Below are positions 48,182 through 54,622 of a stretch of DNA of 64,000 nt, in pieces. This DNA comes from Chakrabartia godavariana (lineage in GTDB: Bacteria; Pseudomonadota; Alphaproteobacteria; Sphingomonadales; Sphingomonadaceae), in the NCBI GenBank assembly GCA_005518185.1, contig RKSN01000001.1, positions 186,001 through 250,000 on the forward strand, read 5' to 3'. Position numbers and translations under genes: made by a program. The notes under the pieces are model-generated. The model was not told where the DNA came from and did no database searches. It saw only the letters and a list, made by a program, of their open reading frames with translations. Every line of letters begins with the position of its first letter. Position 1 is the first letter of the stretch.

Positions 48182-49252
48182 TCAGGCAGGGACGCCCGGC
48201 CGGAACCAGCGCCGTTCGAACCACAGCGCCAGATTGACCAGCGCGATCAGCGCGGGCACCTCGATCAGCGGACCGATGACGGCGGCAAAGGCGACGGGGG
48301 ACGCAAGGCCGAAGGCCGCGATGGCAACCGCAATGGCGAGTTCGAAATTGTTCGAGGCCGCCGTGAACGACAGGGCCGCCGTGCGCGGATAGTCGGCGCC
48401 AATGGCCCGGCCGCAGGCAAAGGCCAGCACGAACATCACGACGAAGAACAGCGCGAGCGGGATGCCGATACGCACCGCATCCATTGGCAGCGCGAGGATT
48501 TCGCCGCCCTTCAGGCTGAACATCGCAACGATGGTGAACAGCAGCGCGACCAGCGTCATCGGGCTGATCATCGGCAGGAAGCGCCCTTCATACCAGTCCG
48601 CCCCGCGCGCCTTGATGAGCGTGCGGCGGACGAGGAACCCGGCGAGGAAGGGCACGCCGAGATAGGTCAGCACCGCCTTCGCAATCGTCGAAAAATCAAT
48701 GTCGACGACATGCGCGTCGAGCCCGAACACCGGCGGCAGCACCGTCAGATAGAACCAGGCATAGGGTACGTAGAAGAAGATCTGGAACAGCGAGTTGAAG
48801 GCGACGAGGCCGGTCACATATTCGGGGCTGCCCTTGGCCAGCTGGTTCCAGACGAGCACCATCGCGATGCACGGTGCGATGCCGATCAGGATGAGGCCGG
48901 TGAAATATTCGGGCTTGTCGGGCAGCAGCAGCGCAGCCAGCGCGAACATGAAGGCGGGCGCCACGATCCAGCACAGCACGAACGACAGCGCGAGCACCTT
49001 GCGGTCGCGAAACACCTGCCCAAGTTCCTCATAGCGGACCTTGGCGAGCGGCGGGAACATCATCAGGATCAGCCCGATCGCAATCGGCACACTGGTCGAA
49101 CCGACCGACATGGCATTGAGCGCCGCCGGCACGGCGGGCACGAGCGACCCGAGCGCGATCCCGACTGCCATCGCTGCGAAGATCCAGACGGTCAGATAGC
49201 GGTCCAGAAAGGACAGCCGGGCGGCGGGGGCATTCAGGGCAAGCGTGGCCAT
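48182..49252 (-). CDS. acr3: ACR3-family arsenite efflux permease
   Basis: 356 residues with ten hydrophobic segments. Catalytic Cys128 in [24 protein letters not shown] and the conserved glutamate in [18 protein letters not shown] are present. Exports As(III). Starts on the arsC stop (TGATG), so ars genes are translationally coupled. Confidence 0.95.
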
Positions 49253-49758
49253 CAGGCGGCTCCTTCCATCTGCCCGATGCGGGCAAGTGCGGCGGCGAGG
49301 GCCGCGCGGTCCATGGTTTCAAACGGCAGGTCGAGCAGCGCGCGCACGCGCATCTCAAGCCAGTGCCACGTCTGGTCAAAGGCGGCATCGACCGTGGCGT
49401 CATCGCCGGTCACATCCGCCGGGTCGGGCAGGCCCCAATGCGCCTTGATCGGGGCGCCGAGGAAAATCGGGCAGGTCTCGCCCGCCGCATTGCCGCACAC
49501 GGTGATGGCGAGATCAATGGGCGGCGCGTCCGGGCCGGTGAATTCGTCCCAGCTCTTGGACCGGAAAGCGGCAGTCGCAATGCCCTTGCGCGCGAGCAGG
49601 CGCAGCGCGCCGGGATGCGGCACGCCCTTGGGCCTGCTCCCCGCGCTATGGGCGGTGATGCGGCCTGCGCCGCGCGTGGCCAGCATCGCTTCCCCCAGGA
49701 TCGAGCGGGCGGAATTGCCGGTGCACAGCACAAGGATGCCGAAAGGACGCTGCGTCAT
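49252..49758 (-). CDS. arsC: Arsenate reductase, low-molecular-weight phosphatase type
   Basis: 168 residues. Active-site loop [10 protein letters not shown] (Cys12, Arg18), plus Cys88 and Cys96 in [13 protein letters not shown] as the resolving pair of the thioredoxin-dependent class. Reduces As(V) to As(III) for ACR3. Start at [11 protein letters not shown]; a 17-codon extension lacks support. Confidence 0.93.
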
Positions 49759-49765
49759 TTTTGGT

Positions 49766-50098
49766 TCACCCGCATGCGGATTGGGAGGCGATGGCGAGGG
49801 ACGGGGCACATTCGTCCCCGTCGCAGCAATTCTCCATCAGATAGGCGATGAGGCCGTTCATCGCGGCATAGTCCGCCGCATAGATGATCGACCGGCTCTG
49901 CCGCCGCTGTGTGACGAGGCCCGCATGGGCGAGTTGCGCCAGATGAAAGCTCATCGAAGACCCCGGTACGCCGACGGCCTCTGCAAGCGCGCCCGCAGGC
50001 ATCCCGTCCGGCCCGGCCTGAACAAGCAGGCGGAACGCGGCGAGGCGGTGTTCCTGCGCCAGCGCGCCGAGCGCGCGGATGATCGGACCGGCTTTCAT
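49766..50098 (-). CDS. arsR: ArsR-family arsenic repressor
   Basis: 110 residues, winged helix with MPAGALAEAVGVPGSSMSFHLAQLAHAGLVTQRRQSRSIIYA. The arsenite-binding cysteines are at the C-terminus (LMENCCDGDECAP), not in the recognition helix as in E. coli ArsR. The start at 50098 has a weak ribosome site; an in-frame extension to 50185 covers the promoter and is rejected. First gene of arsR-arsC-acr3. Confidence 0.9.
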   Translation of the reverse strand: MKAGPIIRALGALAQEHRLAAFRLLVQAGPDGMPAGALAEAVGVPGSSMSFHLAQLAHAGLVTQRRQSRSIIYAADYAAMNGLIAYLMENCCDGDECAPSLAIASQSACG

Positions 50099-50127
50099 GC
50101 TCTCATTCCCATGATTCAATAAATGTG

Positions 50128-50155
50128 GAAATATCGATATATGACGCCGTGTCAA
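50128..50155 (-). promoter_or_regulatory. ars promoter with ArsR operator
   Basis: On the minus strand a perfect -35 TTGACA (50150-50155) and a weak -10 TATTTC (50128-50133), 16 bp apart. The perfect palindrome ATATCGATAT (50131-50140) lies across the spacer and the -10 edge, where a repressor would block RNA polymerase. Confidence 0.6.
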
Positions 50156-50311
50156 GCGTGGGCGCTGCGGCCTTGTCCCCTCCATTCACCCCGTGCCGCG
50201 CACAAACCATCCCCCAAAACAAGGCGTTCGCCGGACACATTCATCGGGGAGCAATGTCCGCTTGAACAGGAGGGCACCGGTTTCTAGGGGGCAGCTCAAG
50301 GGAGAATTAAC

Positions 50312-51249: not shown

Positions 51250-53169
51250 TCAGATGCGCAATTGGCTGCCCAGTTCCACCACGCGGTTGGTCGGCAGCTT
51301 GAAGAAATCCATCGCCGATTCCGACGTCTTGAGCATCCACGCGAAGAGGTGCTCGCGCCACAGCGCCATGCCCGCCACTTCCTGCGCCGCAATCAACTTC
51401 TGCCGCCCGAGGAAATAGCTGGTGCGCATCGGATCGATCGGGCCGCCCGCTGCTGCGTCGAGCAGCAGGTCGCGCGGCACGTCGACATCCTCCATGAACC
51501 CGTAGCGCAGGAGAACGCGGTAGAATCCGTGACCAGCGGCGTCGGCCTTCAGCCGCTTGGCCGCGTCAACATAGGGCGTTTCCTCAAACTGGATCGTCAG
51601 GATGATCACGCGTTCATGCAGAACCTGATTGTGCTTCAGATTGTGCAACAGGGCGGAAGGAACGCCGTCGGGGGTGACCGACAGGAAGATGGACGTGCCG
51701 CTCACCCGATGTGCGGACCCGGCGGCGGACCGGATGAAAATGTCCATCGGCACGCTTTCCTTGGCCAGTTGCGCGCGCATTAGCGACCGGCCCTTGGCCC
51801 ATGTGGTCAGCACGATGAAGATCGCGCCAGCAACGAGCAGCGGGAACCAGCCGCCATCGGCCACCTTGGTGACGTTCGACAGGAAGAAGGTGACATCGAC
51901 AATTGAGAACAGGGCGATCGTCGCGGTCGCGGCCCAGCGGTTCCAGCGCCAGACCTTGAATAGAAGGAAGGCGAGCATCGCTGTCGTGATGATCATCGTT
52001 CCGACCACCGAAATGCCATAGGCGGATGCGAGGCGGGTCGATTCCCGGAAGCCGAGGACGAGCACCAGCACCATGATCAGCAGGCCCCAGTTGACGGCGG
52101 GCATATAGATCTGCCCGGCGGCGCGCTCGCTGGTGTGGAGGATCTTGAACCGCGGCAGGAAGCCGAGCTGGATCGCCTGATGGGTGACCGAGAAGGCGCC
52201 GGAAATGACCGCCTGACTGGCGATCACCGTCGCGCAGGTGGCGAGCAGCACCAGCGGCAGCCGGGCCCAGTCCGGCGCCATCATGAAGAAGGGGTTCTCG
52301 ACCGCTGCCGGGCTGCCGAGCAGGAGCGCGCCCTGTCCCATATAGTTGAGCATGAGGCACGGATAGACGAGCCCCAGCCAGCCAAGGCCGATGGCCTTCC
52401 GGCCGAAATGCCCCATGTCGGCGTAGAGCGTTTCCGCGCCCGTCACCGCAAGGAAGACGGAGCCCATGGCGAGGAAGGCGAGCTTCATGTCGTACCGGAA
52501 AAACTCGACGGCCCACCATGGATTGATGATGCCGAGGATTTCGGGATGGCGGATGATGTTCGTCACCCCGAGCACCGCGAGCGCGATGAAATAGACGAGC
52601 ACGATCGGGCCAAAGAGCTTGCCGACTTTCGCGGTGCCGCGTGACTGGATCAGGAACAGGGCGCCGAGGATGAGCACCGCGATCGGGATCACCAGCGGCT
52701 CAAGCTGTGATTCCACGATGGTCAGCCCCTCGACCGCCGAAAGCACGGAAATGGCCGGGGTGAGCATCGCATCGCCATAGAAGAGCGCGGCTGCCAGCAC
52801 GCCGAGCACCGCGAGCGACGCGGCCCAGCGTTTGTCCTCCAGATGGCGGGAAATCAGGGCCAGCAGCGCAAAGGAACCACCTTCGCCCCGGTTGTCGGCG
52901 CGCATCGCGACAAAGACGTATTTGACGGTCACGATCAGCATCAGCGACCAGAAGATCAGGCTCAGCACGCCAAAGATGTGGAGCCGGTCCACCGCCAGCG
53001 GATGCGGGCCGATAAAGGCCTCCTTCATCGCATAAAGCGGCGACGTGCCGATATCGCCATAGACGACGCCGACTGCGCCGAGCATGAGCACGGGAAGGCT
53101 GTCCGTCTTGGCGGCGGCGTCGCCAGCCGCAGCGGTGCCGTCCTGCGGCGCGGATATGGACATGTTCAT
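51250..53169 (-). CDS. kup: Kup-family potassium uptake protein
   Basis: 639 residues with 12 hydrophobic helices and a cytoplasmic C-terminal domain. LGAVGVVYGDIGTSPLYAMKEAF is the KUP signature, followed by DNRGEGGSFALLALISR, GDAMLTPAISVLSAVEG and FLSVTPDGVPSALLHNLKHNQVLHERV. A proton-coupled K+ importer. Start at 53169 or 53163 (MNMSISAPQ); a longer frame is rejected. It is divergent from the KdpD/KdpE-like fusion gene. Confidence 0.96.
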   Translation of the reverse strand: MNMSISAPQDGTAAAGDAAAKTDSLPVLMLGAVGVVYGDIGTSPLYAMKEAFIGPHPLAVDRLHIFGVLSLIFWSLMLIVTVKYVFVAMRADNRGEGGSFALLALISRHLEDKRWAASLAVLGVLAAALFYGDAMLTPAISVLSAVEGLTIVESQLEPLVIPIAVLILGALFLIQSRGTAKVGKLFGPIVLVYFIALAVLGVTNIIRHPEILGIINPWWAVEFFRYDMKLAFLAMGSVFLAVTGAETLYADMGHFGRKAIGLGWLGLVYPCLMLNYMGQGALLLGSPAAVENPFFMMAPDWARLPLVLLATCATVIASQAVISGAFSVTHQAIQLGFLPRFKILHTSERAAGQIYMPAVNWGLLIMVLVLVLGFRESTRLASAYGISVVGTMIITTAMLAFLLFKVWRWNRWAATATIALFSIVDVTFFLSNVTKVADGGWFPLLVAGAIFIVLTTWAKGRSLMRAQLAKESVPMDIFIRSAAGSAHRVSGTSIFLSVTPDGVPSALLHNLKHNQVLHERVIILTIQFEETPYVDAAKRLKADAAGHGFYRVLLRYGFMEDVDVPRDLLLDAAAGGPIDPMRTSYFLGRQKLIAAQEVAGMALWREHLFAWMLKTSESAMDFFKLPTNRVVELGSQLRI

Positions 53170-53198
53170 GTCTTCACACTGGGCCGGAACCGCATAAA

Positions 53199-53216
53199 GA
53201 TTCCATGTGGATTTCC
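53199..53216. promoter_or_regulatory. Possible tandem-repeat regulator site between kup and the KdpD/E fusion
   Basis: GATTCC (53199-53204) repeats as GATTTCC (53210-53216) with an 11-bp step. OmpR/KdpE-type winged helices bind such 11-bp direct repeats. It lies 30 bp upstream of the kup start. Weak evidence; the repeats are short. Confidence 0.25.
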
Positions 53217-53272
53217 GCCTGTCGGGCTTTGTCCCTCTCGACGGACGCGCCGCTCGGGCGCATCTTGTCCGC

Positions 53273-54622
53273 ATGGATGCAAGCAGTCTATTTTCACGTG
53301 ATCGCGCGCCGTCGGTCGCCATCGGTCTTGCCGGTCATGTCGGCGCGCTGCTTCTCGTCGCCGTGTCAACGCTCGTCGGCCTGCTCGTTGCATCCCGATG
53401 GGGCAGTTCGGACGTCGTGCTTCTCTATCTGCCGGCGGTTCTGGCCGCCGCGATCTATGCGGGACTGCGGCCGGGCCTGCTGGCGGCGCTCGCCTCGACG
53501 CTGGCATATAATTTCTACTTCACCGCCCCTTATCGGACCTTCCTCATTCACAGTCCGGCGGATGTTGTCACCGTCCTGATCCTGTTTCTGGTGGCGGTCG
53601 TGACGAGCCAGCTTGCAGCCTCGGTGCGTCAGCAGGCGCGGCTCGCCTCCGCGCACGCATCGCGCAACGCGACGATCGCCGGCTTCGCCCGCCGCCTGCT
53701 CGCGGCGAATGAAGAAGATGGCGTGGCGGGGGAAACGGTGCGTGAACTGGCGGAGTTGTTCGCCTGTCAGGCGGTCCTTCTGGTCGGCCCGGAGGCGCGG
53801 CTGATCGCGGCCGCACCGCACCGGCCGGAGCTCAACCCCAGCGATGTCACCGCTGCTGCCGTGTCGCTCCAATCGGGGACGGCGACGGGCCGCAGGCGCG
53901 CGCTGGTGCGGGAATCCGATTGGCAATTCTATCCCGTGCGCGTGCAGGACCAGACGATTGCAACCGTTGGCCTCGCGCGGGAGGACGGGGCCATGCCCGT
54001 GGGGGCCGAGCACGCGCAGCTTCTGGACAGCCTTCTCGATCAGACGGCGCTCGCGCTGGAACGTGTCCGTCTCGACCGGGAAGCGCGTGACGCGCTGGCC
54101 CTGCGCAAGCTGGACCACCTGCGCGCGGCGCTGCTCGCGTCTATCGGCACCGATGTGAAGCCGCGCCTGAACGCCATCCAGGCCGATTTGCGGACACTGC
54201 GGCGCGACGGCACGGCAGACCGAGCCATCCTTGCCCAGCTGACAGCGGAGGCAGGCAAGCTGGATCGCTATATCGACAATCTGGTCGATCTCGGCCCCGG
54301 CGAGGATCAGGCGGCCCTGGCCTTTGGCGATGTGGTCTTCGATCTGCGGCGCCGTTCGGTCCTGAAGGGCGGGGTGGCCGTTCATCTGACGCCCAAGGAG
54401 TTTGCCGTGTTTGCGGAACTCGCCAAGCATGCCGGTCGCGTCCTGACCCATGGGCAGCTGCTGCGATCCGTCTGGGGCCCGGCGCAGCAGGACCAGATCG
54501 ACTATCTGCGCGTGGCGATAAGGGCGCTCCGGCAGAAGCTGGAACAGGATCCCGCCCGGCCGGAACTCATCGTCAATGAACCCGGCGTCGGCTACCGTCT
54601 GGTGTCGACGCCCGCCGCCTGA
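53273..54622 (+). CDS. KdpD-sensor/KdpE-DNA-binding fusion, membrane-bound regulator
   Basis: 449 residues, and an unusual build. Residues 15-115 are a KdpD-type four-helix DUF4118 (YLPAVLAAAIYAGLRPGLLAAL, YNFYFTAPYRTF). Residues 130-270 are a KdpD-type GAF domain. Residues 280-340 align with the KdpD dimerisation helix, but the phosphoacceptor SHDLRTPL reads GTDVKPRL, so the histidine is Thr293. The ATPase domain is absent. Residues 351-446 are a KdpE-type winged helix (VHLTPKEFAVF, QLLRSVWGP, LRQKLEQDPARP, NEPGVGYRLV). No receiver domain and no KdpD N-terminal USP part. The start (ATG 53273, or GTG 53207) is uncertain. A single-component K+ regulator is inferred. Confidence 0.85.
   Translation: MDASSLFSRDRAPSVAIGLAGHVGALLLVAVSTLVGLLVASRWGSSDVVLLYLPAVLAAAIYAGLRPGLLAALASTLAYNFYFTAPYRTFLIHSPADVVTVLILFLVAVVTSQLAASVRQQARLASAHASRNATIAGFARRLLAANEEDGVAGETVRELAELFACQAVLLVGPEARLIAAAPHRPELNPSDVTAAAVSLQSGTATGRRRALVRESDWQFYPVRVQDQTIATVGLAREDGAMPVGAEHAQLLDSLLDQTALALERVRLDREARDALALRKLDHLRAALLASIGTDVKPRLNAIQADLRTLRRDGTADRAILAQLTAEAGKLDRYIDNLVDLGPGEDQAALAFGDVVFDLRRRSVLKGGVAVHLTPKEFAVFAELAKHAGRVLTHGQLLRSVWGPAQQDQIDYLRVAIRALRQKLEQDPARPELIVNEPGVGYRLVSTPAA

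Follow-up and report, generated by a model that had tools for sequence, protein, structure and literature searches.

The gene at positions 53273 to 54622 (forward strand) of the analysed window, a 64,000-nucleotide stretch of Chakrabartia godavariana DNA, encodes in one intact reading frame a 449-aa protein that joins the KdpD-type membrane, GAF and DHp-like parts of a sensor kinase to the winged helix of KdpE, and this fusion is likely to be a membrane-tethered one-component transcription factor derived from KdpD/KdpE by a single deletion and acting on the neighbouring K+ importer gene kup2. In Pfam searches, DUF4118 with its four KdpD-type transmembrane helices was found at residues 25-126 (53345-53650; 1.4e-26), while a Trans_reg_C match at residues 369-443 (6e-21) falls within the KdpE-type winged helix at residues 346-444 (54308-54604). 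The GAF domain (residues 149-264; 53717-54064) is assigned from a GAF_3 match of 1.2e-4, below the cut-off, together with an alpha/beta fold in the structural model and the alignment to KdpD. It is followed by a DHp-like helical hairpin (residues 263-340; 54059-54292), a HisKA remnant recognised from the model helices and from its alignment with the HisKA of KdpD. No match to HisKA, HATPase_c or Response_reg was obtained in the fusion protein with Pfam, and the KdpD (PF02702) and Usp N-terminal domains are absent as well. According to NCBIfam, residues 18-321 align to positions 398-701 of the 895 in KdpD and residues 346-444 to positions 126-224 of the 225 in KdpE, so the aligned parts are what remains of the two proteins once the KdpD N-terminus, the ATPase and the receiver are taken away. 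The first-pass annotation had described KdpD membrane and GAF parts and a KdpE winged helix in one chain with the ATPase and receiver gone, and the domain searches and structure prediction run on 53273-54622 uphold this fused build without a phosphorelay.

The AlphaFold2 monomer model, computed from a shallow alignment of six sequences, is of moderate confidence (pLDDT 74, pTM 0.45). It contains membrane helices at residues 15-39, 49-63, 65-84 and 95-144, a GAF-like fold, a long helix (245-312) that pairs with another helix (317-339) to form the DHp-like hairpin, a joint modelled with low confidence (340-345) and then the winged helix at 349-443. The winged helix of the fusion matches the DNA-binding domain of Escherichia coli KdpE (3zq7) at 2e-25, and its model superposes on that structure with a TM-score of 0.93 by target length and 1.4 A; moreover, R413 and R420 correspond, with the numbering matched by hand, to two functionally important arginines of the E. 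coli KdpE recognition helix. Predicted membrane segments and a DNA-binding domain are thus present in one chain without a phosphorelay, as in transmembrane one-component regulators. The former phospho-acceptor His position is occupied by Thr293 (codon 54149-54151), as had been noticed from the sequence, and across the 22 orthologues it holds E (10), Q (7), D (2), T, A or R and never His. The DHp hairpin itself is kept in the fusion, and its loss is limited to this His.

The fusion is conserved and under purifying selection. Full-length orthologues are present in 19 of 299 family genomes, the window's own included, from at least 13 genera, and three further loci, found by a single-sequence pattern scan of genome contigs that reaches close relatives only, bring the orthologue set to 22. 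Tsuneonella troitsensis and Altererythrobacter segetis are among the sphingomonads that have the fusion. Orthologue identity is 53-70%, and dN/dS in close pairs is about 0.09-0.18 for the whole fusion gene; for the DHp-like hairpin, it is 0.06-0.11 in four of six close pairs, 0.38 in one and not computable in one. No second full-length fusion was found elsewhere in the source genome (G000), a survey of 385 genomes of the class at E <= 1e-60 detected none outside the family, and the listed matches from 299 genomes of the phylum, where they lay outside the family, were separate KdpD or KdpE genes. A frameshift hiding a normal ATPase domain, or homologues fused only by misassembly, had been named as findings that would refute this reading; both are excluded because orthologues of this divergence occur in independent assemblies and show such dN/dS values. 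The identical join recurs in 22 loci of separate assemblies from at least 13 genera, the sequence at this point contains nothing of an ATPase or a receiver, and the chance that an ordinary KdpD/KdpE pair is concealed here is negligible. A pseudogene is likewise rejected by dN/dS.

A related build has been reported in Neisseria gonorrhoeae, whose Rsp combines the PilS receptor and the PilR DNA-binding domain in one protein (PMC10269533; PMC6528607). As in the present fusion, the membrane part of a sensor kinase and the DNA-binding domain of the cognate response regulator make up one chain, although Rsp belongs to the PilS/PilR, RpoN-type families and the protein studied here to KdpD/KdpE (NCBIfam). 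The earlier statement that no such build had been described is, therefore, too broad, since Rsp is of the same kind. Among open-access papers searched, none was found that describes a fusion of KdpD with KdpE, or a sphingomonad kup adjoining KdpDE. Rsp is called the remnant of a system in the title of Carrick et al. 2000 (cited in PMC6528607), and the present gene might by the same token be a decaying, functionless relic; this is very improbable, however, in view of 22 intact orthologues, their dN/dS and an operator box conserved along with the gene. Whereas Rsp was reported from one species, the KdpD-KdpE fusion is a conserved, selected system of 13 genera with its own putative operator, a predicted target and an intact sister.

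The predicted target, the K+ importer gene kup2 (51250-53169, reverse strand), is divergent from the fusion in 22/22 loci. Its start is probably 53169, so the 690-aa call for the kup reading frame is too long. The fusion had been placed beside kup instead of kdpFABC with a call for a survey of kup linkage in other genomes, and the arrangement recurred throughout: kup adjoins the fusion at every locus. No kdpA match was found in the source genome. Of the 299 family genomes, 78 carry kdpA, and among the 19 fusion genomes a single one does (Fisher p = 0.03, relatedness ignored). All 19 fusion genomes have exactly two kup copies, while most of 30 fusion-less relatives have one; in several fusion-less relatives with two, the second kup adjoins a KdpD/KdpE pair. 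The fusion-linked kup genes form one clade (SH-aLRT 98), save one divergent, long-branched copy in G205 (L009/L121), which is 50% identical to the window's kup and still keeps both box and fusion beside it. Elsewhere in the window, consecutive ACR3-like, ArsC-like and ArsR-like genes at 48182-50185 (reverse strand) were recognised from their translations as a probable arsenic resistance cluster.

In a tree of the sensor and winged-helix parts, the fusions are monophyletic (100/100), and their sister, with support of 98/92, is a single sequence, L078 of G003. This locus, divergent from kup, encodes a short KdpD that has HisKA and HATPase_c but no KdpD/Usp N-terminus and whose gene overlaps that of a complete KdpE. 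Since the sister is an intact short KdpD-KdpE pair that is also divergent from kup, a single origin of the fusion, by deletion from a kup-linked KdpD-KdpE pair, is most likely. A second intact short pair divergent from kup is L079 of G029. Besides these two (L078:1317-5509 and L079:2331-6735), short pairs lie co-directionally with kup at L080, L081 and L082, and the pairs of L078-L082 look like kup-dedicated two-component systems. HATPase_c is present in the sensors of L078-L083, and the canonical KdpD of L083 also retains the KdpD/Usp N-terminus. The kup-linked short pairs thus share with the fusion the sensor without the KdpD/Usp N-terminus and the position beside kup, but they keep HisKA, HATPase_c and the receiver, are split over two genes and do not have the exact 22-bp operator box described below; a related tandem site, TTTACG-N5-CTTATG, lies on the kup strand of the kup/kdpD intergenic region of L078. 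The history would then run from canonical kdpDE, through a short kdpD-kdpE beside an extra kup, to an in-frame deletion, which would have removed everything between the DHp hairpin of KdpD and the winged helix of KdpE, the ATPase and the receiver included, from a parent whose KdpD presumably had already lost its N-terminal domains. This order is suggested by the tree together with the improbability of regaining both ATPase and receiver. Another kinase-less form, a truncated KdpD of 421-442 aa, was seen at L084:3749-5050, L085:2859-4124 and L086:3034-4362; L084 and L085, which were domain-scanned, have a Usp domain, DUF4118 and a GAF-like end.

Between the fusion and kup2 lies a putative operator box, AATCCACATGG/AATCTTTATGC (53192-53213, reverse strand), which was found in the intergenic alignment and consists of two head-to-tail 11-bp repeats reading towards kup. 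The 22-bp box is nearly invariant, with a mean conservation of 0.96 inside it vs 0.61 outside, its two repeats agree at 7 of 11 positions, and it lies 21-23 bp from the kup ATG in 22/22 loci. In a 3-mismatch search, it was found once in 17 of the 19 fusion genomes, the source genome among them, and twice in one (G243); the box of G201 is too diverged for this search. The box is absent from 30 fusion-less genomes and from the surroundings of their kup genes. A wide regulon is rejected, as a relaxed scan of the source genome gave no perfect site other than the one at kup, and only one of the 19 fusion genomes has a second near-match. That near-copy in G243 (L120:4383, 2 mismatches) lies at the start codon of a CoA-lyase-like reading frame and is taken as chance. 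The first half-site (CACATG) deviates from the usual KdpE half-site; the second, TTTATGC, is of the type seen in tandem before the kdp operons of relatives. The kdp promoters of these relatives carry YTTAYG-N5-YTTAYG (7 of 20 regions at >= 10/12 vs 0.1% of shuffled regions), which corresponds to the half-sites of E. coli KdpE, TTTATA-N5-TTTACA (PMC3264566). A KdpE-like pair of tandem half-sites 11 bp apart is conserved beside the fusion gene as its candidate site. In several relatives (L123-L142), the region before kdpF has a KdpE-type tandem site, 19-20 bp, CTCGA, about 17 bp and CCTAAT, which is likely the Kdp promoter layout of the family.

The fusion is probably an activator of kup2. PhoB-type activators cover the -35 region, and if kup were leaderless, the box would lie over its -35 region in just this position; with a short kup leader it would lie over the -10 instead. 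The closeness of the box to the kup start also allows for repression, in which the fusion would bind the box at sufficient K+ and release it when K+ falls, and overlap with the -10 under a short leader would suit this, as would the description of the related Rsp as a repressor (PMC10269533). We regard repression as unlikely, given that KdpE, the DNA-binding ancestor of the fusion, is an activator (PMC9239096) and that kup has no good conserved -35, as expected of an activator-dependent promoter. The spacing between the box and the fusion's own promoter also suits activation, at that promoter. A conserved -35-like element, CTCGAC (53237-53242, forward strand), lies 30-31 bp before the fusion ATG in 19 of 22 loci, as for the -35 of a leaderless promoter, and a poorly conserved -10-like element, CATCTT (53261-53266, forward strand), would be compatible with transcription starting leaderless at the ATG. 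CTCGAC lies 12, 22-24, 33 or 44-47 bp from the box, in steps close to whole helical turns; this clustering has a P of about 0.03 when the spacings are treated as four independent ones, and the helical phasing is therefore suggestive only. The pattern is a hint of autoregulation by the fusion as well.

Conserved in at least 13 genera beside a K+ importer gene with a matching DNA site, the fusion looks like a working one-part switch. We infer for it a membrane location, dimerisation through the hairpin, activation of kup2 and an input by K+ (or by PtsN via the GAF domain). The four-helix membrane domain and the GAF domain would sense low K+ and/or cell state, the signal would pass along the long helix into the dimeric DHp-like hairpin, and movement of the hairpin might set two winged helices on the two 11-bp half-sites, by which kup2, and probably the fusion gene as well, would be switched on. 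Homology to KdpD is what points to K+ as the signal. The one-component regulator might instead respond to another input, such as turgor or EIIA-Ntr (PtsN) bound to the GAF domain. The KdpD of Sinorhizobium fredii is bound at its GAF domain by PtsN1 in the unphosphorylated state (PMC9239096); the fusion retains this domain, and a PtsN-like protein is encoded in the source genome. Such an input seems possible but doubtful, as the GAF domain varies more than any other part of the fusion (0.52 mean pairwise identity) and the target is a K+ importer.

With canonical KdpD/KdpE, the fusion has in common DUF4118, GAF, the DHp hairpin, the winged helix, the type of tandem half-site and K+ import as target, but it is without the KdpD/Usp N-terminus, the phospho-acceptor His, the ATPase and the receiver, and it adjoins kup instead of kdpFABC. 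Like ToxR and CadC, it would be a membrane-bound one-component regulator with an OmpR-type winged helix; in those regulators, however, the winged helix is N-terminal and there is a single membrane pass, whereas the fusion carries it at the C-terminus, after four membrane helices, GAF and the DHp-like hairpin. The hybrid transmembrane regulators of Bacteroides (PMC10269533) also unite sensor, kinase-type and DNA-binding domains in one chain, but they keep two-component core domains (receiver, HATPase_c and/or HisKA), of which the catalytic ones are deleted in the fusion.

On balance, we lean towards the locus being a functioning conversion of a two-component into a one-component system by a single deletion, with ancestor-like pairs still extant, in which the DHp hairpin would serve as a phosphate-free mechanical link from a K+-sensing membrane domain to winged helices on a tandem operator. 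The usual view is that one-component systems gave rise to two-component ones, and this locus points the opposite way. As fusion, operator and intact sister pair all lend themselves to comparison, a direct test is opened of whether a DHp hairpin can signal to a DNA-binding domain through movement alone, and KdpD sensing, a long-debated point, could be tested without kinase and phosphatase activities. For the genomes that carry the fusion, which are mostly without KdpFABC, the finding suggests that K+ shortage may be met by the second Kup.
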